Below, in pieces: positions 7,059 to 40,639 of a stretch of DNA of 47,387 nucleotides. Source of the DNA: Candidatus Amesbacteria bacterium RIFCSPLOWO2_01_FULL_48_25. GTDB taxonomy: Bacteria; Patescibacteriota; Microgenomatia; CAZETR01; Amesbacteraceae. The stretch covers positions 1 through 47,387 of the forward strand of contig MEXN01000007.1 of assembly GCA_001773695.1 (NCBI GenBank), in the 5' to 3' direction. The notes below the pieces were generated by a model that saw only the letters and a program-made list of their open reading frames with translations, did not search any database and was not told the origin of the DNA. The first letter of the stretch is position 1, and each line of letters starts with the position of its first letter. The translations under genes and the position numbers were made by a program.

Positions 7059-7088
7059 TTGACAAATCCCCCCTCGGGGGATTAACAT
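7059..7088 (+). promoter_or_regulatory. csoR-copA operon promoter with embedded CsoR-type operator
   Basis: TTGACA at 7059-7064 and TAACAT at 7083-7088 are 18 bp apart. The spacer is filled by a perfect inverted repeat, AATCCCCC-ctc-GGGGGATT (7065-7083). G/C-run palindromes of this sort are the known type of CsoR operator. Its position would let the bound repressor block RNA polymerase. The ATG of csoR (7094) is only 5 bp after the -10, so the transcript would start at or next to the start codon (leaderless) if this -10 is used. Confidence 0.75.
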
Positions 7089-7093
7089 GAGGT

Positions 7094-7354
7094 ATGGATT
7101 CGAGAAATGGAGCTTTACACAGGCTGAAGATTGCCAAGGGGCATCTGGACAAGGTCATCCGGATGGTACAAAACGATGAGTATTGCATTGACGTCCTGAC
7201 GCAGTCACAGGCGGTGCAAGGGCAATTATCCGAAGTGGACGCTATGATCCTGGAGAAACATCTGGGAACGTGTGTAGCGGATGCTATGAAGAAGGGGGAT
7301 AATAAAAATTCGGTGGATGAAGTTATAAAAGTGTTTAGGAGGGGCCGTGGATAA
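7094..7354 (+). CDS. csoR: CsoR-family copper-sensing repressor
   Basis: An 86-residue all-helical metal-sensing repressor of the CsoR/RcnR (DUF156) family. The Cu(I) ligands are present with the spacing of the M. tuberculosis protein: C31, H56 and C60 (EYCIDV, then EKHLGTC). The N-terminal helix carries basic residues used for DNA binding (HRLKIAKGHLDKVIRM). Cu(I) binding would release the operator at 7065-7083. It heads a plus-strand operon with cupredoxin, copA, DUF1573 and dsbD-like genes, and its end overlaps the next start by 8 nt. Confidence 0.92.
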   Translation: MDSRNGALHRLKIAKGHLDKVIRMVQNDEYCIDVLTQSQAVQGQLSEVDAMILEKHLGTCVADAMKKGDNKNSVDEVIKVFRRGRG

Positions 7355-7700
7355 AATTTTTGTGCTGACAGGAGCCCTAGGCTTGATTGGGTTTATTTAT
7401 TGGTTTTTTCTTGGAAAAAGGGATGAGGCAGGAGAGATAACGACCAACGTAAAAGTAAAAGTCGCTGGGGGTTACTCCCCTGCTCTAGTGCGGATACCGG
7501 CGGGTAAAGAAGTGACGATCACTTTGACTCGGACTGACCCGACGGATTGTTTGGAAGAATTTACGATACCCGATTTAAAGATTAAAAAAAGCTTGCCGAT
7601 GGGTGAGGAAGTGGTTTTGAAATTAAAAATTAGTAAACGGGGTGAGTATCCGTGGCACTGCGGAATGAACATGTACCACGGAAAGTTGATTGCCGTATGA
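7347..7700 (+). CDS. Membrane-anchored cupredoxin-like copper protein
   Basis: A 117-residue protein with one N-terminal membrane helix (residues 4-22) and an extracytoplasmic cupredoxin domain. The domain has the pattern expected of the EfeO-type/cupredoxin_1 fold: strands from residue 33, a cysteine at C68 (TDCLEEF) and the C-terminal loop W103-H-C-G-M-N-M-Y-H-G. Candidate copper ligands are C68, H104, C105, M107, M109 and H111. The GTG start at 7347 overlaps csoR; no ATG lies closer to the helix. Probable role: receiving or carrying copper at the outer face next to CopA. Confidence 0.8.
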
Positions 7701-9796
7701 CCAAAACTTTTCCTATCGCCGGTATGCACTGCGCCAGTTGCGCGGTGAATATCCAAAGGGTGTTACGAAAAACGCCGGGGGTGGTGGCAGCGACGGTGAA
7801 TTACGCCACGGAAAAAGCCAATGTGGAATATGATCCGGCGCAAACCGATGAAATGAAAATGGGAGAAGCGATAAAGCCTTTGGGATACGAACTAGTAACC
7901 GAGCAACAAATGGATGTAGTAACAGAGAAAAAAAATAATGAAGTTAATAGGTGGAAGTGGAAGTTTATTGTAGGGGGGGTGATTTCGGTAATCAGTATCT
8001 GGGGCAGCTTTACGGGAATGAATTGGGGGATACTTTTGGTGCTGGCGACAATTTCTCAATTTGGAGTGGGGTGGGATTTTTACAAAACGACCTGGGCATC
8101 GCTCCAAAACCGGATGGCAAATATGGATACACTAATTGCTATCGGTACGAGTGTGGCGTACGGCTATTCTGCAGCGATAACTTTGTTTGGAATAAAGGGC
8201 GAACCGTATTTTGACACATCTGTCACTATTATCGCTTTGATAGTTTTGGGGAAATGGTTGGAAGCGAGAGCTCGGGGAAAGACTTCGGAAGCCATAAAAC
8301 GGCTGATGGGGCTGCAGCCGAAAACTGCAAAAGTAATTAGGGGAGATAGGGAGTTTGAGATTAGGATAGATGAAATTGTGGTGGGGGATAAAATCCGGGT
8401 CCGACCGGGGGAGAAGGTACCGGTGGATGGAGTGGTGGAATCCGGGGAAACGAGTATTGATGAATCGATGGTGACGGGCGAGTCGATCCCGGTGTATAGG
8501 CATGACGGCGACGCGGTAATCGGGGGAACACTGAATACGTCGGGAACGATAATATTTGTGGCCAAAAAGGTGGGCAGTGAGACGATGCTGGCTCAGATAA
8601 TTAAATTGGTGGAGGAAGCCCAGGCTTCCCGAGCGCCTATCCAAAAATTGGTGGATGTCATTTCCGGATATTTTGTGCCGGTGGTATTAATGATTTCCGT
8701 GGCCACATTTGCAGGATGGTATGTGTTTGGTCCTTCGACAAGCTCAGGGCTTTTGGGAATGCTAGCAGGAATCGCCGTTCTTATTATTGCTTGTCCCTGC
8801 GCTTTGGGCTTGGCGACGCCGACGGCACTAGTGGTTGGAACTGGGCTAGCTGCACAGCACGGAATTTTGATTAAGGACGCCCAGAATTTGGAGGTGGCTT
8901 ACAAAATAAACCATGTTATTTTTGATAAAACAGGTACTTTGACCGAGGGTAAACCGGTGGTTACAGATATTAAGGGCGGAGATGAGGTTTTGAAATTGGC
9001 GGCGAGTTTGGAAGCTGGATCAGAACATCCCTTGGCGAGAGCGATATTGGATGCGGCGGAAAAGGCGGCTCTGAAACTGGAAAGGGTGGAGAAGTTTGAG
9101 GGCTTGGCCGGAGAAGGAGTGAAGGGAATAATAAATAAGAAAGAATACCGATTAGGTAAGCCATTGGCTGAGACGGATGAGGTAAAGAAAATGGAAAGTG
9201 AGGGGAAGACGGTGGTGGTGTTGGGGACAAAAGGAAAAGTTTTGGGAGTGATTGCCATTGCGGATACGGTCCGGGAAACGGCCAAAGAGGCAGTGGCCCA
9301 GTTGCAAAAACAAAAAATTGAGGTGTCGCTTTTGACCGGGGACAATCCTCGGACAGCGGCTGCGATTGCCAAGCAGTTGGGCATCAAAAGATATTTTGCC
9401 CAGGTGAAGCCCGCGGATAAGGAAAAAGCGGTACGGCAATTGCAAGGAGAGGGCAAGATCGTGGCTATGGTAGGCGATGGCGTTAACGACGCGCCGGCGC
9501 TGTCTGCGGCTGATGTGGGAATTGCTATGGCGACGGGGACAGATGTGGCTATGGAAGCTGCGGGGATAACTCTGGTTAACCGCGACCTGAAATCTATCCC
9601 GCTGGCTCTAAAACTTTCCCGCTCTACTCTGCGGACGATAAAAACAAATCTATTTTGGGCGTTTGCTTATAACGTGGTGTTGATCCCGGTGGCGGCATTG
9701 GGCATCCTCTCCCCAATTCTCGCTTCGGCGGCAATGGCCACCAGTTCGTTATCAGTGGTGGGAAATTCATTATTACTTAAGAAAGTTAAGCTATGA
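7697..9796 (+). CDS. copA: Cu(I)-exporting P1B-type ATPase
   Basis: A 699-residue copper pump. It has one N-terminal heavy-metal-associated domain (G9-M-H-C12-A-S-C15), the TGES actuator motif, membrane motif C366-P-C368 ([11 protein letters not shown]), phosphorylation site D410-K-T-G-T, the SEHPLA nucleotide-binding motif, GDGVND (D594) and the C-terminal [10 protein letters not shown] segment. The CPC plus SxxxVxxNS pattern is that of Cu(I)/Ag(I) exporters. I start at the ATG at 7697, which overlaps the cupredoxin stop (ATGA) and puts the HMA motif nine residues in; the longer frame from 7652 has no support. An in-frame insertion PSTSSG (8732-8749), encoded by a short repeat, lies in the loop just before the CPC helix. 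Confidence 0.95.
8732..8749 (+). repeat. Short dispersed repeat inside copA (codes PSTSSG)
   Basis: CCTTCGACAAGCTCAGGG lies exactly in frame in copA. This 18-mer, and its variant with TTCGCTC, turn up as dispersed repeats in many environmental genomes (from memory). A related variant is at 17835-17852 at the copR-copS junction. It adds six residues in a membrane-proximal loop and would be tolerated there. Confidence 0.55.
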
Positions 9797-10287
9797 ATAT
9801 AAAGATTGTAATTATTGGGGTTTTGCTGACAGCAATTTTGGTTGGTGGAGGGGTGGTAGTTATGTCCCGGTCTCCTAATGCAGCCAGTTTGGAAAAGACC
9901 GACAAGACCAAGTTTTTCACCGATCACACTAATTTTGACTGGGGAAAAATCAATTACAACGGAGGAGTGGTAAACCACGTGTTTGAGATAAAAAACAGCG
10001 GGGAATCGAGCCTTAAATTGGCTAACATCAAGACATCGTGCATGTGCACGACGGCCAAAATCAGCACTAAAAACGGTGCCGGTCCAACTGTAAAAATGCA
10101 CGAGGTATCTGATTGGCAGGGAGTTCTGGAACCTGGGGAAACTGCGCAACTGGAAGTGGTTTTTGACCCGGCATTTCACGGACCGACCGGGGTGGGTCCG
10201 GTTGAGCGGATCATTAGCGTGGAGACATCCGATCCGAATAAAGCTAATGTCGAGTTTAATTTGAAGGGGGTAGTTACAAGATCGTGA
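9793..10287 (+). CDS. DUF1573-family extracytoplasmic protein
   Basis: A 164-residue protein with an N-terminal anchor (residues 4-23) and a DUF1573 immunoglobulin-like domain: [21 protein letters not shown], then [16 protein letters not shown], then [15 protein letters not shown]. The C83-M-C85 motif is standard for this family and may bind metal or be a redox pair. The start overlaps copA by 4 nt and the end overlaps the dsbD-like gene by 4 nt, so it is translated within the copper operon. Function of DUF1573 is not established; a role in copper or thiol handling follows from context only. Confidence 0.8.
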
Positions 10288-11147
10288 CAATCGCATCTGT
10301 TTCGTTGATTGCTGCGTTTTTGGCTGGAATGGTGGCGTTGTTTGCGCCGTGTTGCATCACATTTTTGCTGCCGGCGTATTTGGGGTCGGTATTTAAAGAA
10401 AGGAAACGGGTACTTTTGATGACCTTAGTATTCGGGGCGGGGATTTTTGTGGTTCTGATGCCGGCGGTATTGGGAATATCCTTGATTTCAAAATTCGTGT
10501 TTAGATACCACGACATTACTTATTATTTGGGTGGGGTGGTGATGATTGTGGTGGGGGTGTTGTCTTTGTGGGGGATAAAATTGCCCATGCCTAATATCAC
10601 CCGGCGGCAAGAGGCGGGAGATAAACCGGACGTTGTGTCTATTTTTACATTGGGAATTTTTTCCGGGTTAACCTCGGCGTGCTGCGCACCGGTATTGGTG
10701 GGAGCGCTGGCATTGACTTTGGTATCACCGTCGTTTTTGTTAGCCTTGATAACGGGGGCAGTTTATGTACTGGGGATGGTGACGCCACTTTTAATTTCTG
10801 GGTATTTTATCGACGCGCAGAAAGTATTTAATCGGGCGGTGTTTGGAAAAAGAGTGGGGAGATTTGTTTTGTCGAATTTGATCGCGGCGGGAATTTTCAT
10901 CCCGATGGGGGTACTTATTTTGTTTTTGACAATTACCGGCAAATTGTCCATGGAGACTTCCCGGCACTATGCCCAAACTATCCAAAACACGGCCGCGGGA
11001 ATTGATAAGGCCTGGAAAAAACTAGTGAACAAGCCCAAAGGGAAAATCGAGGGAACAAAAACTGAGACGTGGGGTGAAGTGGAGGCGACGGCGACACCAA
11101 CCGAGGCTGGGTTCGAACTGCAATTCAATACTCATTCGATTGAACTA

Positions 11148-12267
11148 TACCGAGCGCGGGCACAAAATGCGGTTTTCGCGAGAGGCTTGTGTACCATCTG
11201 GTATGATTTTGTCTATGACCATCCAACTTGAGTTCCCGCCAGAGATTTTGAAAGAATTGTATTACCACCGCTACAATCATCTTGCGCCGCTCGTCCAACG
11301 CCGGATGGATGCCTTGTGGTTGAAAGCGCATGGGTTGCCCCATGCCCAAATTGCGGAACTGGTCGGCGTCACCGACAATACCCTCCGGGAATATTTTGAA
11401 CTCTATCAGCACGGCGGCCTGGCGAAGCTGAAAGAACTCAACTACTACCGACCGCAGAGCCAACTCACCGCCCATGTCGTCTCGCTCGAAGCGTATTTTC
11501 GGGAGAATCCTCCGGCCAGCATCAAGGAAGCCCAACATCAGGTTGAAATCATCACCGGGGTCCAACGTAGCGAGACCCAGGTGCGCGAATTTTTGAAAAA
11601 AAACTCCATCTCCGTTGTCGACGGGTCGGGATGATCCCGGCTAAAGCCGACCCGGAGGCCCAGGCGGCCTACCTGACCGAGAAACTCGAACCGCGGTTAG
11701 CCGACGCCCAGGCTGGAAAACGGACTGTTTTCTTTGTCGATGCCGCCCATTTCGTCCTGGCGCCGTTTCTCGGTTTTCTGTGGTCGCTGACGCGGGTTTT
11801 CCTGCGCGCCCCGGCCGGTCGGCAACGCTTCAATATCTTGGGCGCCTTGAATGCCATGACCCATGAACTCATTACCGTGACCAATGACACCTACATCACC
11901 GCCGAGAGTCTGTGTGCTCTCCTCCAGAAACTAGCCGCCCTACCTCTGGCCGTGCCCATCACCGTGTTCCTAGACAACGCCCGATACCAGAAGTGTGCCC
12001 TGGTGCAAACGATGGCGGCCCATTTGAACATTGAACTGTGTTACTTACCCGCTTACTCCCCCAATCTGAATCTGATTGAGCGGGTTTGGAAGTTTGTCAA
12101 GAAGCAGAGTTTGTATTCCAAATACTATGCCGATTTTGCCTCCTTCAAGGCAGCCATTGAAACCTGTGTTCGGGAAATGCCAACGACTCACAAGGCCGCT
12201 TTAGATTCCTTGCTGACCCTACGCTTTCAGCGTTTTGCAAAAGCGCAGTTTATGCCCGCGTGAGGTA
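11148..12267 (+). mobile_element. IS630-family insertion sequence
   Basis: A 1120-bp element. The ends are imperfect inverted repeats starting TACC: left from 11148 (TACCGAGCGCGGGCACAAAA) and right from 12267 on the other strand (TACCTCACGCGGGCATAAAC), with 23 of 29 positions matching. A TA dinucleotide flanks each side (11146-11147 and 12268-12269), the target duplication typical of IS630/mariner elements. It carries a transposase in two overlapping frames. Its base composition is visibly richer in G+C than the surrounding genes. It inserted in the same orientation as dsbD and appears intact. Confidence 0.9.
11203..12263 (+). CDS. IS630-family DDE transposase, made by -1 ribosomal frameshifting
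   Basis: ORF A begins at ATG 11203 (or 11215, MTIQLEFPPEIL) and has the N-terminal HTH region (AQIAELVGVTDNTLREYFE). It stops at 11634. ORF B continues in the -1 frame to 12263 with the DDE catalytic core: D in FFVDAAHFV, D in TVFLDNARYQ, and E in SPNLNLIERVW. The frames meet at A-AAA-AAC (11598-11604), set as X-XXY-YYZ relative to ORF A. Slipping back one base gives LKKKLHLRCRRVGMIPAKAD, matching the continuous transposase order expected for this group. I take this as programmed frameshifting rather than decay because all catalytic residues and both ends are intact. Confidence 0.85.
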
Positions 12268-12477
12268 TAGATTTCGATGTATCAGAAATAGCCAAGTTGA
12301 CTGATGACGCAGGGACTGATTACGGGCAGGGGAAATGGACCGGAGCGCCGCCGGGCGGACACCACAGGAGTGGGACATTAAGTTTTGACAAGCCTATTGC
12401 AACTAGTGCAAAATTAGTGAAGTTAACTTTAGAAGGCTTGGGAGATTGGGAATGGGAGAGGAGGTGAAGTCAATAAT

Positions 12478-12744
12478 ATGAAACTGGATTCGACCAGAGT
12501 AGCTAACGCCCTGGCAATTGTGGGGGCCGGACTGTATGTAGTATGCACATTTTTGGTGGCTGCCACCCCAGTGTTTTATCGGGGAGTGGCCCAGACATGG
12601 ATGCACGGATTTAATCTGTCGGCCTTGCCCATGCGGCAAATGACGTTTGGAGGAAGTATCTGGGGCCTGGTGACATTCACCATCGTGTCCTGGCTGACAG
12701 GATACGCTTTTGCAGTGATTTACAATGGCTTGGGCAAAAAGTAG
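12478..12744 (+). CDS. DUF5676-family membrane protein
   Basis: An 88-residue protein with two membrane helices (about 11-31 and 60-85) separated by a WMHGFNLSALPMRQMTFGGSIWG loop. This order matches DUF5676, a family often found beside metal-efflux genes; its role is unknown. A strong ribosome site AGGAGGTGA (12459-12467) overlaps the end of the reconstructed dsbD gene and sits 10 bp before the ATG. That supports both the operon and the rebuilt dsbD end. Confidence 0.75.
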   Translation: MKLDSTRVANALAIVGAGLYVVCTFLVAATPVFYRGVAQTWMHGFNLSALPMRQMTFGGSIWGLVTFTIVSWLTGYAFAVIYNGLGKK

Positions 12745-13144
12745 CCCGCCTGCCGGATGGGCAGGTGTCGCGGCACTGGGAATGCTGGCATTTTATTTTG
12801 CCACTCTCACTTTTTTGGGTGGGGGGTGGGAGTTTGCCTGGGGGCAATTTTCCCAATATTGGTGGCTGGTATTACCGATTGTGGGGACGTTCGGTGGACA
12901 GGTATATCTAGCAAAAAACTTGAAAATGGCGGCTGGTACTGGAGGAGTGTCGGGGGCTGCAATGATAGCATGCTGCGCGCATCACGTGGCTGAATTCCTG
13001 CCGTTTTTGGGCCTATTTACCGCCGCGTCTTTTTTAATCCGATATCAGATTCAGTTTATGTTTTTGGCGCTGGGAGTGAATGTTTGGGGATTAATTTACC
13101 TATGGTTGAAGCATGAAAATCACAACAAACCTTTTACCCTTTGA
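12725..13144 (+). CDS. Membrane protein with CC-x-HH motif, unknown family
   Basis: A 139-residue protein of about four membrane helices. The third segment carries A-C83-C84-A-H86-H87-V-A-E90-F-L-P, which looks like a metal or haem/thiol site within or near the membrane. The start at 12725 overlaps the DUF5676 gene by 20 bp. It is last in the plus-strand copper operon and converges, with an 11-bp overlap, on the gene at 13134. I recognise similar proteins only as unnamed members of copper-resistance neighbourhoods. A copper transport or insertion role is inference. Confidence 0.65.
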   Translation: MAWAKSSPPAGWAGVAALGMLAFYFATLTFLGGGWEFAWGQFSQYWWLVLPIVGTFGGQVYLAKNLKMAAGTGGVSGAAMIACCAHHVAEFLPFLGLFTAASFLIRYQIQFMFLALGVNVWGLIYLWLKHENHNKPFTL

Positions 13145-13556
13145 CCGATTTTTTGTGAGCTTTAATTTTTTTGAAATTATCAAAAGCAAGTCGCAACCTA
13201 TCAACCCCCACAGTCATCCCCACAGGGGGTAACAGCATACCTAAAACTAAGGAAAATCCATCACCGATTAAAGCTCGGATGCCATGCAATTCTTGCGGAG
13301 AGGGTTTCTGTGGCAATATGGGGTTTAGTTCCCGAGCACCTAGCCCTAATCCTGTTTTAGTTGAGCTCAAATCTAAAATAGTTCCTAAAATGTAAATTCC
13401 TCCTGAAACAGTTGCAAGCGGGACAATGACATTGGGTCCTAGCAAATAAAGCCCCTCTGCACATATCATGTATGAAGCAACCCCCATGGCAGTGAGTAAC
13501 TTAAGGCGACTTCGAAAATTAGTCATGTATTCTTCCATCCTAATTCGTTCACTCAT
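13134..13556 (-). CDS. Unknown membrane protein, DUF5658-like motif
   Basis: A 140-residue protein with three likely membrane helices. It contains D-L-S-S-T-K-T-G-L-G-L-G-A-R-E-L-N-P, close to the 'D..sT...G..E.NP' signature of DUF5658-type membrane proteins. The start is ATG 13556; ATG 13538 is a possible alternative. A minus-strand TATACT lies about 8 bp upstream of 13556, so the message may have almost no leader. No link to copper is visible beyond position. Confidence 0.55.
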   Translation of the reverse strand: MSERIRMEEYMTNFRSRLKLLTAMGVASYMICAEGLYLLGPNVIVPLATVSGGIYILGTILDLSSTKTGLGLGARELNPILPQKPSPQELHGIRALIGDGFSLVLGMLLPPVGMTVGVDRLRLAFDNFKKIKAHKKSVKG

Positions 13557-13770
13557 GCCCTATAGTATACACAGGGCGGGGTGAGCTGTCAATTTTACAC
13601 GGGATACGAGGATTGGAAGAAGGGAACTTGCGGTTAAGATGGTGGGTTAATGCGAGAACGAGCGAACTAACGGCAAGGATGGCATATTCAGCTATATTAC
13701 CTTATAGACAACCGATATGCTTCAAGGAATGAAAATGGTGTCGCGGTCAGCGATATACCAAGCAGTTGAT

Positions 13771-13857
13771 TTATTTATGTTTGTCCCCATGGTCTTTCAT
13801 CATCCAAATATGACTGATTATACAGAAGGCCAGGAGAGCGACGTAAATCCAGTTCAT
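13771..13857 (-). CDS. 28-residue membrane peptide with His/Lys-rich tail (DUF2933-like)
   Basis: The ATG at 13857 overlaps the stop of the gene at 13854-14870 (ATGA), and the frame ends at TAA 13771. The peptide is MNWIYVALLAFCIISHIWMM followed by KDHGDKHK: one membrane helix and a short polar tail with two histidines. This resembles the small DUF2933 proteins seen in metal-resistance clusters (from memory). Translational coupling is the main evidence that it is real. It is the last gene of the minus-strand copper arm. Confidence 0.6.
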   Translation of the reverse strand: MNWIYVALLAFCIISHIWMMKDHGDKHK

Positions 13858-14870
13858 ACTCCGCAGCCGCCGCCACCTTGGACTTTGGGTACTAAACCCG
13901 TGGATTGAAGCTCTTTATTAACTTTACCCGCGCCCTGACCTGAAGAATACTCCACTCCCAAGGCTTCCATGGGATTAACGTTTTTCCAGACGATATTTCG
14001 CTTGGCCTTCATATATGTGGCAATTTCAGCATAAGTCTGGGGGAACCAATAAGAGTTAAGAGCTAGGGCGTTTCTGTAAATCTGGTCTTTGGAAAGACCG
14101 GAGGCCACCGCCAGCTCGATAAAGCCCAGCATAGCTGCCCCATGATTGCAATCCGGGAAGTAGGTACTGTTGCCGCAGCAGGGGCGATAGATATTTTGAG
14201 AAATTTCGGTCACCAGGGATTCTTGGTCTGAGGTTAAAGATATCAGGTTTAAACTATTAAATAACTTTCCTCCGTCTTTGGCTCCCAAGGTCCATCCTCC
14301 GGTCGAGGCGAAATTACCAATCTCTTTTTTGTATTGCGTGCCCATTGGGCCCTTGGCTAAAACGTCCGTTTTGTTGGCAATCCCCAGCGGCCAGAGGAGA
14401 TTTAAAATGAGACCGGAGTTGGCCTGGGTGATGACGATGTCTGTATTGGATGGAGACTCGAGTAGCTGTTTGGCCTGATCCAAATCCGCTTGCCGACCTT
14501 CGTAAAGAGCTAAAAATTTTTGTTTATCAACTGCCCCACTTCGAACCATTTTGACGATGACGTCCCCCCATTTGACGTCTAAATTAACGCTTGGGGGTAA
14601 AACCTCGGTGATGGAGACGATACTGCCTGTGCCCGACGGGGAGGGAGCAACCGCGGTTTTGATCAGCTTTGGTAACTCCAAGCTCCAACCTTGCCGGTCA
14701 ACCTTAATACCTACAGAAATACCTAAAATGAAAGTGGCCACCAATAACCAGAGAGTTTTGTTGGTGTGCCAAGATCCTGCCGGTTGCGGAGTCGGAATTT
14801 TAGTAAATTCGGTCCTGATTCGACGGCGAGAAGGCGATCTGGGCGTCAGTTTGGGAATGGATTCATCCAT
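13854..14870 (-). CDS. Membrane-anchored protein with CC...C.H motif, unknown family
   Basis: A 338-residue protein. It has a cytoplasmic basic N-terminus (1-38), one membrane helix (about 39-55), and an outer domain. The outer domain ends with YRPC231-C232-GNSTYFPDC241-N-H243-G, a conserved-looking metal or redox site, and a glycine-rich tail with another cysteine (GGGGCGV). I have seen this 'PCC..FPDCNHG' pattern in copper/mercury-type clusters of uncultured bacteria, but it has no assigned function. It follows the thioredoxin-like gene by 78 bp and is coupled to the 28-residue peptide. A metal chaperone or surface reductase partner is possible. Confidence 0.7.
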   Translation of the reverse strand: MDESIPKLTPRSPSRRRIRTEFTKIPTPQPAGSWHTNKTLWLLVATFILGISVGIKVDRQGWSLELPKLIKTAVAPSPSGTGSIVSITEVLPPSVNLDVKWGDVIVKMVRSGAVDKQKFLALYEGRQADLDQAKQLLESPSNTDIVITQANSGLILNLLWPLGIANKTDVLAKGPMGTQYKKEIGNFASTGGWTLGAKDGGKLFNSLNLISLTSDQESLVTEISQNIYRPCCGNSTYFPDCNHGAAMLGFIELAVASGLSKDQIYRNALALNSYWFPQTYAEIATYMKAKRNIVWKNVNPMEALGVEYSSGQGAGKVNKELQSTGLVPKVQGGGGCGV

Positions 14871-14920
14871 CGCTTCACTCTACTATATCAGTTATGAAGA
14901 TTTGATGAGTAATTCTTTTT

Positions 14921-14960
14921 CTTCAAAATTACAGCTTGTTCTTCAAAATTACAGCTTGGC
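14921..14960. repeat. 20-bp tandem duplication at the 3' end of the thioredoxin-like gene
   Basis: CTTCAAAATTACAGCTTG occurs at 14921-14938 and again at 14941-14958. The second copy contains the stop codon and last codons of the gene ending at 14949. The duplication adds a second copy of the gene's 3' end after the stop, so it is harmless to the protein. Confidence 0.8.
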
Positions 14961-15572
14961 AATTTCGTCCAGTAATTGCTTGTTTCTGATGGCCATGGTT
15001 GGGTCGTCCAGCTGAAATCTGACAATTCCTCTTTTGTCTATAAGGACATAGGTGTGACCGGGAAACTGACTCCGATGCATGGAGGATTCTAGTGTGGTGA
15101 CGCCATATTTATTTGAGACGGTCTTGTCCGTATCCAGAAGGACAATGGCAGTGGCTAGTTTGGGCATTTTGGCTATTGCCTGCTGCCACTGGGATTGGGG
15201 GTCAACAGTTATGTTCAAAACGACGGTGTTGGCGGTAGCGAACTCCCTATCAGCCCCGAAGGCGGCAATCTGGTCCCAGCAGGCGGGATAACACATAAGG
15301 CCTTCATTAAAAAACAGGAGGACATTTTTACCCAAAAGATCTGAGAGACTGATCTTTTTATCGTCGAATGAGGTCAAAGTAAAATCGGGGGCAGGTTGAT
15401 TTAAAAGGGCTGAAAATATGCCGGTGTCCGCTGGCTGGGGCTTGTGGTGGTCGGCCATGGGGTCAGAGACAGGAGCCGGAGATGGAGGCGTGGAAGTGGA
15501 TTTGAAAAAGATAGATCCAAAGATGACTACTGCTAAAACAGCTTCGATTATGATAATGGTGGATTTACTCAC
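14949..15572 (-). CDS. Anchored thioredoxin-fold (redoxin/TlpA-like) protein
   Basis: A 207-residue protein with an N-terminal membrane anchor (residues 5-22), a Pro/His linker, and an AhpC/TSA-redoxin domain: APDFTLTSFDDKKISLSDL, then FFNEGLMC94-YPAC98-W. The two cysteines are separated by three residues, unlike the CxxC of classic TlpA, and fit a peroxiredoxin-like or special thiol-disulphide site. The C-terminal half (GHTYVLIDKRGIVRFQL) completes the fold. Its start overlaps the end of the DsbD-like gene by 8 nt, so the two are very likely partners: DsbD supplies electrons and this protein uses them outside the membrane. Confidence 0.8.
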   Translation of the reverse strand: MSKSTIIIIEAVLAVVIFGSIFFKSTSTPPSPAPVSDPMADHHKPQPADTGIFSALLNQPAPDFTLTSFDDKKISLSDLLGKNVLLFFNEGLMCYPACWDQIAAFGADREFATANTVVLNITVDPQSQWQQAIAKMPKLATAIVLLDTDKTVSNKYGVTTLESSMHRSQFPGHTYVLIDKRGIVRFQLDDPTMAIRNKQLLDEIAKL

Positions 15573-16404
15573 GGATTTTCCTCCATTGGCGGACGGCAGA
15601 AATAATAATAGCGGTGACGGCCAAAAGAATAAGGACGGCCCAAACCGGCTCGGGCAAAACGCGTGTGTAACTGCCTATTTTTTCTGTAAGACCGGCTATT
15701 GCTAGGTTGATGCTTAATTGATAAGACGAGTGCATGGTCAGCTGCCCGGTCCTGGCCTTGGCCAGAATAATGATTCCCAAGCCTAAAAACATTATTCCGG
15801 AAATAAGATTTGAAAGAGTTACTTGGCCAAAAATCGGCTTTCTGAGGGCCATTAACTTACGAGTGGCGCCGGACTTGTCCATAACGGCGGCCAAAACAAA
15901 AAGCGGGGCGACCATACCTAAGACATAGGCCAGAGTAAACATCGCCCCGAGCAAATACGATCCTGGTAGAGCGGACAGGGCCAGAACTCCGGCCAAGACC
16001 GGGGCGCAGCAAGCTGTGGCGACGCCGGAGAAAATGCCCAGGCCGAAGACCGACAAGGCGTCGGTTTTTTGCAATTTGGGATGGATGTTTATGGGTAGGG
16101 AGATGCTTTTTCCACTAATCAGTAACAGCCCCAAAAGAGTCAGGATGATTCCTCCGATGACAAAGACCTGATCATGATAGTCGGAAAAAACCTTGGTCAA
16201 AAACGTGACTCCCAGGCCCAGAGGTAAAAACACGGTGACGAGGCCCAAAAAATAAATAAATGTCATTAAAAAGACCGTGGATTTTTGCTTGAAAACCGAG
16301 GCTAAGTAGGTAGGAAGTAAGACCGTGATGCAGCAGGGGGCAAACAAGGCAGCAATACCTGCTAAAAACGAGGCGACGATAGAAGCGCTGAACAGTAAAT
16401 CCAT
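15565..16404 (-). CDS. DsbD/CcdA-like membrane thiol transporter (intact paralogue)
   Basis: A 279-residue, roughly seven-helix membrane protein. Helix 1 has A-P-C24-C25-I-T and helix 4 has T-A-C132-C133-A-P-V, the same double-cysteine motifs as the IS-interrupted gene at 10284. Classic CcdA/DsbD has single cysteines followed by proline at these places, so the pair defines a variant. It ends with an extra helix (VWAVLILLAVTAIIISAV) and lacks the C-terminal soluble domain of the other copy. It lies between copS and the thioredoxin-like gene. This copy may cover the loss of the disrupted one. Confidence 0.85.
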   Translation of the reverse strand: MDLLFSASIVASFLAGIAALFAPCCITVLLPTYLASVFKQKSTVFLMTFIYFLGLVTVFLPLGLGVTFLTKVFSDYHDQVFVIGGIILTLLGLLLISGKSISLPINIHPKLQKTDALSVFGLGIFSGVATACCAPVLAGVLALSALPGSYLLGAMFTLAYVLGMVAPLFVLAAVMDKSGATRKLMALRKPIFGQVTLSNLISGIMFLGLGIIILAKARTGQLTMHSSYQLSINLAIAGLTEKIGSYTRVLPEPVWAVLILLAVTAIIISAVRQWRKIRE

Positions 16405-16436
16405 GCCCCAACTTTAATCCCGAAGGGATGAAGATT

Positions 16437-17834
16437 TTATGAAGAAGCCAGAGGGAGACGGACAGTAAAGGTGCTGCCTTTGGTTGGCGGGCTTTTGACC
16501 TCAATTTCCCCATGGTGGGCGGCAATTATGGATGAGGCGATGGCCAGGCCAAGACCTGACCCCAGAGTCCGGCCGCTTTTGCCGCCGCGATAAAAGCGGT
16601 CAAAGATGTGAGGCAGATCATCTGGGACAATCCCGATGCCGGTATCTTTGATGTCAATTGCGGCTAGGTTCTTTTGGGAAGAGAGAGACAAGGATATTTT
16701 GCCCTCGCCACCTGGCGGGGTAAATTTTACGGCGTTGTCGATTAAATTGAGAAGAGCTCGGAAAATTTTTTCCTGCTGGCCATGTATAAAGATGTCCGCG
16801 GCGATGCGATTACTAACGGTGATACGTCTGGGGTGGGCTAGCTTAGTGGCCACTTCGGCCAGTTCACCGACAGTTTCAGACAAACTAAAATTCTGCCATC
16901 TGGATGAAGAGTCGGATTGCGACCAAGCTAAATCCAAAATGTTTTTGAGGGTGGCAGACATTTTTGCAGCATCTGTTTGGACCTCCTGCAAGGCTTTTTG
17001 ATAATCCTGTCCGGGACGTGGCCTGCTGAGAGCGATTTCCGCAGTGGAAGTAATAGTAGAAAGGGGAGTTTTCATTTCATGAGCGACGTCAGCGATAAAT
17101 TGTCTTTCCCGATCAATTGATTGTTGTAGTCTCTCCAGTAAGCCATTGAAGGCGATGGCCAGCTCTTGGAGGGCATCGGCAGTTTGGGGGACGGCCACTC
17201 TTTGAGACAAGTCTGAGGATTCGATCCGGGCCATTTTGTCGGCCATGTTCGAAACAGGTGACAAGCTGCGGCGAATCAGAAAATAGCCTCCGGCTGCCAC
17301 GGGTATGACCAAAACCCCAAAGACCCCTATCACGAAAATTAACAGGGAGTTTAAGGACTTGTGGATAACATTCACCGGATGAGCTACGACGATGGAGGCC
17401 AGTAAATTTCCGTTTTTGACGATTGGCGCCACGAAAAGCCGCATCTCGATATCTTTAATCGGTCGGTTGACATAGAAGGGTTGTTTGTCCTTTTGGGCCC
17501 GAATAAATAAATCATAAAAAACCGGGTCTGGAGTGGTGATTGTGGAGCCGGAGACTATTACCCCCTGCGAATCCATGATAACAACCAGCATGCCGGGGAT
17601 TTGACTAAACTGCTGGATAAAGGCCTCTTTTGCTATTTCGTCATGCATTCCCGAATTTTGAGAACTAACTACGTCCACCAATTTAGTGGCATGAACCAAC
17701 AAATCGACGTCGGTGTTGGCTTGAAGCAGACGGGAAGTGACGAAATAAAACCCCACGAAAGCAAGAATTGTAGCTGCCAAAAAGGAGAGAGTGACCCAAA
17801 GGGAAAGCCTGAAACTTAACGATCTAGTATTCAT
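16437..17834 (-). CDS. Sensor histidine kinase of the copper-type two-component pair
   Basis: A 465-residue membrane sensor. Helices at about 12-34 and 163-186 enclose an outer sensing domain (35-162). HAMP covers about 187-240, the phosphoacceptor is H252 in FIADVAHEMKTPLST, and the HATPase domain shows LLNLIDNAVKF, DTGIGI and GSGLGLAIASS. The architecture matches CusS/CopS and similar EnvZ-class kinases. Its ATG overlaps the regulator stop by 4 nt (ATGA). The signal is unknown, and copper is inferred from the neighbours. Confidence 0.88.
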   Translation of the reverse strand: MNTRSLSFRLSLWVTLSFLAATILAFVGFYFVTSRLLQANTDVDLLVHATKLVDVVSSQNSGMHDEIAKEAFIQQFSQIPGMLVVIMDSQGVIVSGSTITTPDPVFYDLFIRAQKDKQPFYVNRPIKDIEMRLFVAPIVKNGNLLASIVVAHPVNVIHKSLNSLLIFVIGVFGVLVIPVAAGGYFLIRRSLSPVSNMADKMARIESSDLSQRVAVPQTADALQELAIAFNGLLERLQQSIDRERQFIADVAHEMKTPLSTITSTAEIALSRPRPGQDYQKALQEVQTDAAKMSATLKNILDLAWSQSDSSSRWQNFSLSETVGELAEVATKLAHPRRITVSNRIAADIFIHGQQEKIFRALLNLIDNAVKFTPPGGEGKISLSLSSQKNLAAIDIKDTGIGIVPDDLPHIFDRFYRGGKSGRTLGSGLGLAIASSIIAAHHGEIEVKSPPTKGSTFTVRLPLASS

Positions 17835-18529
17835 GGTTCGACTTCGCTCACCACAAGTGTTTCGACTCCGGCTTTGTATCCTACCCCATGGATGGTATGG
17901 ATGAGTTTTACAGCCGAATTTTTGTCTATTTTACGTCTGATAGCCGCCACGAATACATCCACCACATTACTCATGCCTTCGAAGTTGTAATCCCAGACAT
18001 GCTCGGTGATCATAGTTCTGGTGACTACTTCGTTTTTGTGGCGAAGTAGAAACTCCAATACGGCGAACTCTTTGGGGGTCAGTTCAACCTTCCGTCCGGC
18101 TCGAACGGTTTGGTGCCTGATGGGGTCCAACTGCAGGTTGGACAGAGTTAAAAGTGGTGACGCTTCCTGGCGGCTGCGGCGGAGCAGGGCCTGGATGCGG
18201 GAGCGGAGCTCCAAAAAAGCAAATGGCTTAGTCAGATAGTCGTCCGCCCCGCTATCCAGACCGGCGACCTTATCTTCTACTTGAGACTTGGCAGTGAGCA
18301 GGAGAATCGGGATATTGAGATTTCGATTGCGGAGGCGACGACAAACTTCTAACCCATCCATTTTGGGGAGCATAATGTCCAATATAATCAGATCGTAGTC
18401 TTCGGACTGGGCTAAAAATAATCCTTCTTCACCGTCAAAGGCTGCGTCTACTGCGAAGCCGTTTTCTTCCAGGCCCTTTTTTATGACGTCTGACAACCGG
18501 TGTTCATCCTCCACCAACAATACCCGCAT
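17831..18529 (-). CDS. OmpR/PhoB-family response regulator (CopR/CusR-like)
   Basis: A 232-residue regulator. The receiver domain has acidic D8/D9-type residues in LLVEDEH, phosphorylation site D51 (LIILDIMLPKMDG) and K101 (LTKPF). The winged-helix C-terminal domain shows ELTPKEFAVLEFLL and HTIHGVGYKA. It heads the minus-strand copper arm: regulator, kinase, DsbD-like, thioredoxin-like, CC protein, small peptide. Its last residues (VSEVEP) are encoded by a short dispersed repeat (17835-17852) sitting right at the junction with the kinase gene. Confidence 0.9.
   Translation of the reverse strand: MRVLLVEDEHRLSDVIKKGLEENGFAVDAAFDGEEGLFLAQSEDYDLIILDIMLPKMDGLEVCRRLRNRNLNIPILLLTAKSQVEDKVAGLDSGADDYLTKPFAFLELRSRIQALLRRSRQEASPLLTLSNLQLDPIRHQTVRAGRKVELTPKEFAVLEFLLRHKNEVVTRTMITEHVWDYNFEGMSNVVDVFVAAIRRKIDKNSAVKLIHTIHGVGYKAGVETLVVSEVEP
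17835..17852 (-). repeat. Short dispersed repeat at the copR-copS junction
   Basis: GGTGAGCGAAGTCGAACC on the minus strand encodes the regulator tail VSEVEP and ends just before the ATGA overlap. It is the TTCGACTTCGCTC variant of the repeat inside copA at 8732. The bases beside it (17853-17866) contain a second TTCGACT. Confidence 0.5.
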
Positions 18530-40365: not shown

Positions 40366-40639
40366 CAGGAGGCGCATAAGCCAGATTCTGTTTTGGTGGC
40401 ATCTATCTGATGCTCTCAAGCTTTGGAGTATCGGGGAAGGCTACCCACTCCGGTCGGAGATTGCAGCGGGGAGGATTGCCCGTTTCACCCGAGCTTTACC
40501 CCGGTTCGTCACTGTTGCTCTAACTGGCGGTTACCCGCTCCCGATTAAATCGGGACACCCTGCCTTCTGCTGTCTGGACTTTCCTCCCCCCTTCGCCCTT
40601 GCGGGCTTCGGAGGGTGGCCACCTGTGCCTCCTGGCACG
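40366..40639 (-). ncRNA. rnpB: RNase P RNA
   Basis: On the minus strand the sequence GGAGGAAAGTCCAGACAGCA (P4 5' side), the AGAGCAACAGTGACG block, GGTGAAACGGGCAATCCTCC and the 3' ACAGAATCTGGCTTA appear in the order of bacterial RNase P RNA. The ends pair: CCAGGAGGC at the 5' end with GCCTCCTGG near the 3' end form P1. A TATAAT (40643-40648 on the minus strand) lies just upstream, and a T-run (TTTTTTT) follows P1 and may terminate it. RNase P RNA cuts 5' leaders from tRNAs. The length, about 270 nt, is at the small end for the type. Confidence 0.92.

Follow-up and report, generated by a model that had tools for sequence, protein, structure and literature searches.

The contig MEXN01000007.1 of Candidatus Amesbacteria bacterium RIFCSPLOWO2_01_FULL_48_25 (assembly GCA_001773695.1), 47,387 nucleotides long and referred to here as the window, carries at 7094–18529 an island of copper and thiol genes in two tight convergent arms, one headed by a CsoR-type sensor and the other by a CopRS-like pair. 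The window is contig C7 of a genome of 0.94 Mb on 10 contigs (G000; other G numbers denote genomes of the same phylum, and L numbers denote loci). On balance we lean towards the view that this is a copper-tolerance island recurring in the candidate phyla radiation (CPR), whose CcdA membrane protein, CxxxC redoxin and CcmH-like protein (termed PCC) form an extracytoplasmic reducing thiol relay. The island contains the following features.

7094–7354, + strand: CsoR-type copper sensor (PF02583, 82.9 bits against a cut-off of 22.8) with C31, H56 and C60
7347–7700, + strand: membrane-anchored cupredoxin with a CGMNMYHG motif (PF13473, 85.4 bits; motif alignment)
7697–9796, + strand: CopA, Cu(I) P-type ATPase (TIGR01511, 616.7 bits against a cut-off of 397)
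9793–10287, + strand: extracytoplasmic DUF1573 protein with TSCMCT (CMC) (PF07610, 52.3 bits)
10284–11147, + strand: first of two CcdA-type membrane proteins (motifs APCC and SACCAP), carrying at its C-terminus the 5' part of a GGHH domain
11145–12270, + strand: IS630-family element, with a helix-turn-helix open reading frame (ORF) at 11215–11634 and a DDE_3 ORF at 11631–12263
12270–12467, + strand: 3' remainder of the GGHH domain, from the empty-site reading
12478–12744, + strand: two-helix membrane protein, DUF5676 (PF18926, 67.4 bits)
12725–13144, + strand: helical membrane protein with CCxH(H/Y), CCAHH in the window (CCHH), without a Pfam family above cut-off
13134–13556, − strand: membrane ORF of 140 residues, not conserved with the island
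13854–14870, − strand: PCC protein (CcmH-like), with a membrane anchor at about 34–54 and an extracytoplasmic part bearing RPCCGNS..FPDCNHG and a C-terminal GGCG
14949–15572, − strand: anchored AhpC/TSA redoxin with GLMCYPACW, SSMH and PGHT (PF00578, 67.6 bits)
15565–16404, − strand: second CcdA-type protein, with APCC and TACCAP (ACCAP) (PF02683, 42.0 bits against a cut-off of 27.1)
16437–17834, − strand: CopS/CzcS-like sensor kinase (best model TIGR01386, 252.8 bits against a cut-off of 292.55)
17831–18529, − strand: CopR/CzcR-like response regulator (best model TIGR01387, 263.2 bits against a cut-off of 279.2)

The + arm reads CsoR, cupredoxin, CopA, DUF1573, CcdA, DUF5676 and CCHH; the − arm, from the right, reads response regulator, kinase, CcdA, redoxin, PCC and then the 140-residue ORF, which the + arm abuts where the two converge (13134–13144). 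Seven neighbouring same-strand gene pairs overlap by 4–20 bases. The 13 island proteins contain 29 cysteines and six CC pairs; in 2000 shuffles such pairs averaged 0.2 and never exceeded 3. An initial annotation made from the window's letters had described two operons under CsoR and CopRS-like control, and this was borne out by the ORF calls and family searches; each cysteine motif that it quoted lies where it was placed. It had called two of the proteins DsbD-like. Their APCC and ACCAP motifs are present, but both are of the CcdA type, which corresponds to the membrane part only, and the DsbD label was dropped. The two are 42% identical to each other. Only the second belongs to the CcdA/DsbD_TM family by PF02683; the first, an ORF of 315 residues, had no Pfam match at E ≤ 1.

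CsoR scores above the PF02583 cut-off and has C-H-C, the Cu(I) ligand pattern of CsoR. Among 41 aligned sequences C31 and H56 are present in all 41, and position 60 is C in 25 and H in 16. CPC, YN and MxxSS are the motifs of Cu(I) P1B-type ATPases; the window CopA has all three (the last as MATSS), together with a CASC motif in its HMA domain, and belongs to that class by motifs and TIGR01511 score alike. For the kinase and regulator the heavy-metal CopS and CopR models score best, yet below their curated cut-offs; the pair may work like CopRS, and we do not file it as a member. In the alignments each Cys of the CMC pair of DUF1573 is kept in 33 of 34 sequences, Cys23 of DUF5676 in 13 of 13, both Cys of the redoxin CxxxC and His173 in 15 of 15, and the CC and next His of CCHH in 21 of 21.

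We then asked whether PCC travels with copper genes, searching whole genomes within the window's phylum and, outside it, plasmid records with PCC. Of 379 genomes taken as an even sample of the phylum, 36 have the family. We compared 35 of these (G297, with E 4e-4 and internal stops, was left out) with 45 genomes lacking PCC, which were hand-picked from those listed and are not a random sample. In a species-level collection PCC relatives are present in at least 577 of 586 candidate stretches; an 80-locus set comprises the best 80 of these, closest to the window protein, and 37 evenly drawn loci form a fairer sample. CopA or CsoR accompanies PCC at 32 of the 37 evenly sampled loci and at none of 40 control stretches, hand-chosen in PCC-positive genomes away from PCC. 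Gene by gene, the 37 loci have CopA (28), DUF1573 (25), CsoR (19), CcdA (19), DUF5676 (13), CCHH (7) and GGHH (7), and each was found in 0 of 40 controls; CopA, CsoR and CcdA were sought with the window proteins only, and the DUF1573, DUF5676, CCHH and GGHH models were built from PCC loci, which favours the cases. For redoxin (3 versus 0) and for kinase and regulator (7 versus 2 each) there is no clear enrichment. Of the 80 closest loci, 68 have CopA or CsoR no more than 6 kb from PCC, both strands counted; the individual counts are CopA 60, DUF1573 59, CcdA 53, CsoR 37, DUF5676 33, cupredoxin 22, CCHH 21, GGHH 21, redoxin 14, kinase 6 and regulator 4; five of the 80 have no CopA, CsoR or CcdA in that range. 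The 140-residue ORF had no match among the 80.

At the level of genomes, the double-cysteine CcdA has a strong match (E < 1e-40) in 22 of the 35 genomes with PCC and in 2 of the 45 without it (p 9e-9; at the looser E < 1e-10 the counts are 23 and 4), and 19 of those 22 have it within 5 kb of PCC. CCHH follows the same pattern (10 of 35 versus 2 of 45, p 0.004). CsoR is common even without PCC (30 of 35 versus 29 of 45, p 0.04). The two PCC-negative genomes with a strong CcdA, G065 and G079, carry it with CCHH and CsoR on one contig; the module thus also occurs where PCC is absent. The copper association of the island is well supported. The initial annotation had proposed just such a survey, and had held that its view would fall if the unknown families showed no company of copper genes in other genomes; PCC and CCHH both keep that company, and that of double-cysteine CcdA. 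Likewise supported is its idea of an island dedicated to copper and thiol chemistry, here in a 0.94-Mb genome of the CPR type.

PCC, CCHH and the 140-residue ORF gave nothing above cut-off in Pfam or NCBIfam; the same three and GGHH gave nothing at E ≤ 0.01 in PHROGs, and profile and sequence searches of the Protein Data Bank (PDB) returned nothing useful for PCC or CCHH. Foldseek against the PDB found nothing at E ≤ 10 for CCHH (one structure-search row was a designed protein and was discarded as evidence) and nothing at E ≤ 0.001 for PCC. In both PCC alignments (31 and 71 sequences) R229, C231, C232, N234, D240, C241, H243, G244, W275 and F276 are invariant (numbering of the window protein), and the C-terminal CG is nearly so. 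The AlphaFold2 model of PCC has a mean pLDDT of 86.9, with values above 90 over most of residues 90–330. Among 180 re-aligned chains only 2kw0, the N-terminal domain of E. coli CcmH, reached Z 2, with a Z score of 4.2 over 78 residues (root-mean-square deviation 3.1), which is below the level that the tool regards as telling and by its own note may be chance; the likeness was therefore tested separately with profiles. One of the PCC alignments drew on 70 of the 80 loci, and the CcmH profile on ten sequences, E. coli and nine plasmid records (ten fetched of 40 listed and 154 found; L155, from Deinococcus, was excluded because an annotated gene lies on the opposite strand there).

With hhalign the PCC domain alone scored 24.6 against CcmH, whereas 200 column-shuffled profiles gave 11.2 ± 2.4 with a maximum of 23.3 (none as high) and the reversed profile gave 11.6. 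CcmH ranked first for this domain against 45 unrelated families (runner-up 20.6), and among five segments of PCC the cysteine-bearing one scored highest against CcmH. The alignment places CcmH CPKCQNNS over RPCCGNST, with DSN and DCN within about one residue of each other. CcmH is described in PMC3884852 as a three-helix thiol oxidoreductase with LRCPKC in the loop that joins helix 1 to helix 2. RPCC occupies the same place in the PCC model.

PCC also occurs in fused form. At L049 it forms the C-terminus of a heavy-metal P-type ATPase of 1037 residues, and at L037 and L044 it is fused to a rhodanese domain. Seven loci (L025, L026, L039, L046, L048, L057 and L108) have, ahead of PCC, an N-terminal membrane domain with a CPxCG or similar motif, for which no Pfam family scored above cut-off. 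CcdA is near none of these seven, drawn from both samples, compared with 53 of 78 unfused loci from the 80 closest (p 7e-4, Fisher); on stretches of at least 12 kb the figures are 0 of 5 and 39 of 55 (p 0.004). Such a pattern would arise if the CPxCG-like domain stood in for CcdA.

Several neighbours of PCC deserve mention in their own right. L134 has beside PCC a fusion of HMA, a DsbD_2-type membrane domain and cupredoxin (12550–14010), and small neighbours end in or near a C-terminal CC at L119 (9303–9824, DCCKE), L121 (4863–5219, DCC) and L094 (2275–2550, GGCCH); those of L119 and L121 have no Pfam family above cut-off.

In a tree of PCC, from which seven duplicate loci, short rows, L039 and L108 were excluded, Microgenomates and Gottesmanbacteria hold the nearest named relatives of the window protein. 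The plasmid search gave relatives with 37% identity in nine records, from Burkholderia contaminans (5) and Paraburkholderia fungorum (4); CCHH had no match there. Two plasmid proteins group with the membrane-fused CPR proteins L025 and L026 (support 100/99, with a composition warning). The B. contaminans gene is surrounded by two cueR, DUF2933, CcdA, peroxiredoxins, thioredoxin and a P-type ATPase, and the Paraburkholderia gene by two metal ATPases and CcdA. An apparent Nitrospirota member, L118 (recorded as Thermodesulfovibrionia bacterium DeMMO2_3), is nearly identical to a CPR Vogelbacteria sequence (tree path about 0.05) and was taken as a binning error.

The island resembles several known systems and departs from each. 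By its predicted structure PCC may share with CcmH/NrfF, the thiol oxidoreductase of System I cytochrome c maturation, the succession of a helix, a cysteine loop and two helices; the two also have aligned C/N/S-T and D-(S/C)-N positions and an anchored, extracytoplasmic placement. PCC differs in having RPCC in place of LRCPxC, an additional Cys in DCN, more than 100 extra N-terminal residues and the GGCG tail, and its genomes lack cytochrome c assembly genes. The CcdA proteins have the membrane core of the CcdA/DsbD transmembrane domain (PF02683), with Cys in two helices, but the cysteines are doubled (of 58 aligned sequences, both window copies included, 50 have APCC and at least 47 have CCAPVL) and the first window copy is fused to GGHH. 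A CxxxC with a distal His is the Sco/SenC motif. The redoxin has such a CxxxC and a conserved His before a strand, but matches AhpC-TSA (67.6 bits) rather than SCO1-SenC (PF02630, 12.9 bits against a cut-off of 22.8). ScsABCD (suppressor of copper sensitivity) combines a DsbD-type membrane reductase and thioredoxin-like proteins that serve copper tolerance. The island would share this arrangement; it differs in its double-cysteine CcdA, CxxxC redoxin, CcmH-like partner and linkage to CsoR and CopA.

From the observed gene content, conservation, co-occurrence, domain fusions and lack of cytochrome c assembly genes we infer that copper is the metal and that PCC is redox-active, and we propose an electron path, direction and substrates for the relay. 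CsoR and the CopRS-like pair would sense copper, and CopA would export Cu(I). The cupredoxin, DUF1573, redoxin, PCC and the GGHH domain, as membrane-anchored extracytoplasmic proteins, would handle copper outside. Electrons from thioredoxin in the cytoplasm most likely cross the membrane through the double-cysteine CcdA proteins and reach the CxxxC redoxin and PCC. Such a relay would hold the cysteines that bind Cu(I) in reduced form, or undo disulfides formed under copper. Several features fit a reducing relay: the copper-type motifs of CsoR and CopA, a redoxin whose CxxxC and His resemble those of Sco, and thioredoxin-family genes in G000 (two matches). The initial annotation had envisaged a relay of electrons or Cu(I) across the membrane; this is strengthened by PCC's likeness to CcmH and by the neighbouring CcdA and CxxxC redoxin, and the flow and its direction are proposals.

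A number of observations weigh against this proposal. The whole-protein profile match of PCC to CcmH is weak (probability 1.8%, E 0.028; 4.6% in a second run), and that of the domain alone reaches a probability of only 27%. PF03918 (CcmH) does not appear among the family matches of 71 PCC members at E ≤ 5, a search in which the HMMER filters drop most weak matches, and it has no match in G000. The CxxC of CcmH (LRCPxC) is not kept, PCC having RPCC and a third Cys in DCN. Since PCC neither matches the Pfam model nor has the CxxC, we call it CcmH-like and not CcmH. Its Cys/His set would equally suit a metal site or a redox site, and the PCC of L057 has no C-terminal Cys. CcdA is absent from 27 and redoxin from 66 of the 80 loci, and 13 of 35 PCC-positive genomes have no strong CcdA match. 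Among the plasmid relatives, the B. contaminans island also contains c-type cytochromes, TlpA and SCO, and a mer operon lies about 8 kb from the Paraburkholderia gene.

One alternative is an island for copper sequestration and export with no redox relay: Cu(I) would bind directly to the CC pairs of CcdA, CCHH and PCC, to be retained or handed outward, and CcdA would act as a metal carrier. The invariant CC and His residues, the fusion of PCC to a heavy-metal ATPase and the roughly one third of PCC loci lacking CcdA are all in keeping with sequestration or export. We nevertheless judge it unlikely, since the predicted fold of PCC and, weakly, its profile resemble those of CcmH, and since PCC is linked to CcdA and to a redoxin, both from families of thiol-redox proteins. 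A metal mainly other than copper (mercury or silver), or a general soft-metal defence, is suggested by the two metal ATPases and mer operon near the Paraburkholderia relative and by the 60 aligned ATPases near PCC, which are 22 CPH, 20 CPC and 18 neither by the pattern used; this seems distinctly improbable given the CPC, YN and MxxSS of the window CopA, the invariant C31 and H56 of CsoR, the cupredoxins and the CueR beside the Burkholderia relative.

CcdA, a CcmG-like redoxin and a CcmH-like PCC might also be ordinary parts of cytochrome c maturation, or of copper insertion into an oxidase. The families do resemble System I/II components, the B. contaminans relative has c-type cytochrome genes in its vicinity and one PCC-positive genome (G239) has COX1. 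However, Cytochrom_C_asm (PF01578; CcmC/CcmF/CcsA) is found in none of the 35 PCC-positive genomes, although the same model was found in 8 of 14 controls; COX1 is present in that genome alone and Cu-oxidase_3 in 3 of 35, and G000 has none of the three. With these genes absent or rare, it is unlikely that CcdA, the redoxin or the CcmH-like domain works for cytochrome c or, in most of these genomes, for one of those copper enzymes. A maturation role in CPR is thus largely refuted, and this explanation as a whole is very improbable. PCYCGC (PF13798), considered as a nearer relative, had no match in G000, and its model matched no control genome either.

A more specific form of the reducing relay may be offered as a tentative suggestion: an unnamed transmembrane thiol relay for copper in CPR, in which double-cysteine CcdA or the CPxCG-like domain feeds a CcmH-like protein that directly serves the outlet of the Cu(I) ATPase, would amount to a thiol machine of the cytochrome-assembly type without cytochromes. 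The gene family is common to CPR and Burkholderia-group plasmids. Should PCC prove to be a thiol protein of the CcmH type, in cells that lack cytochrome c assembly, the fold would have a second role beyond that process. PCC, which has no Pfam model, becomes a named candidate, with a tested gene set around it, for how the mostly uncultured CPR deal with copper outside the cytoplasm. It can be tested at the bench thanks to its domain fusions and to the relatives that culturable bacteria carry on plasmids. No title or abstract opening describing this gene set was found in the literature, a search that left most subscription papers outside and leaves absence unproven.

The + arm has been interrupted by the IS630-family element, which the initial annotation had overlooked; it had likewise not noted that CcdA and GGHH are fused or how widely the family is distributed in the phylum and on Burkholderia-group plasmids. 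The element has inverted repeats of 32 nucleotides (11145–11176 and 12239–12270), lies at a TA, carries overlapping transposase ORFs in different frames and has one match in G000. Reading through the empty site gives a CcdA–GGHH protein of 353 residues whose C-terminus matches the GGHH hidden Markov model (E 5.6e-26); GGHH is a small extracytoplasmic family with a GGHH motif and no Pfam family above cut-off. The insertion breaks the GGHH domain and leaves the CcdA membrane core whole. An intact fusion is present in the Amesbacteria contig L111; elsewhere GGHH is a separate gene, and 14 of 21 CCHH genes have it as an immediate neighbour. Away from the island, the sole Rfam match at gathering level in the window is to the archaeal RNase P model (40367–40633, − strand; 92.3 bits against 84), in a bacterial genome.

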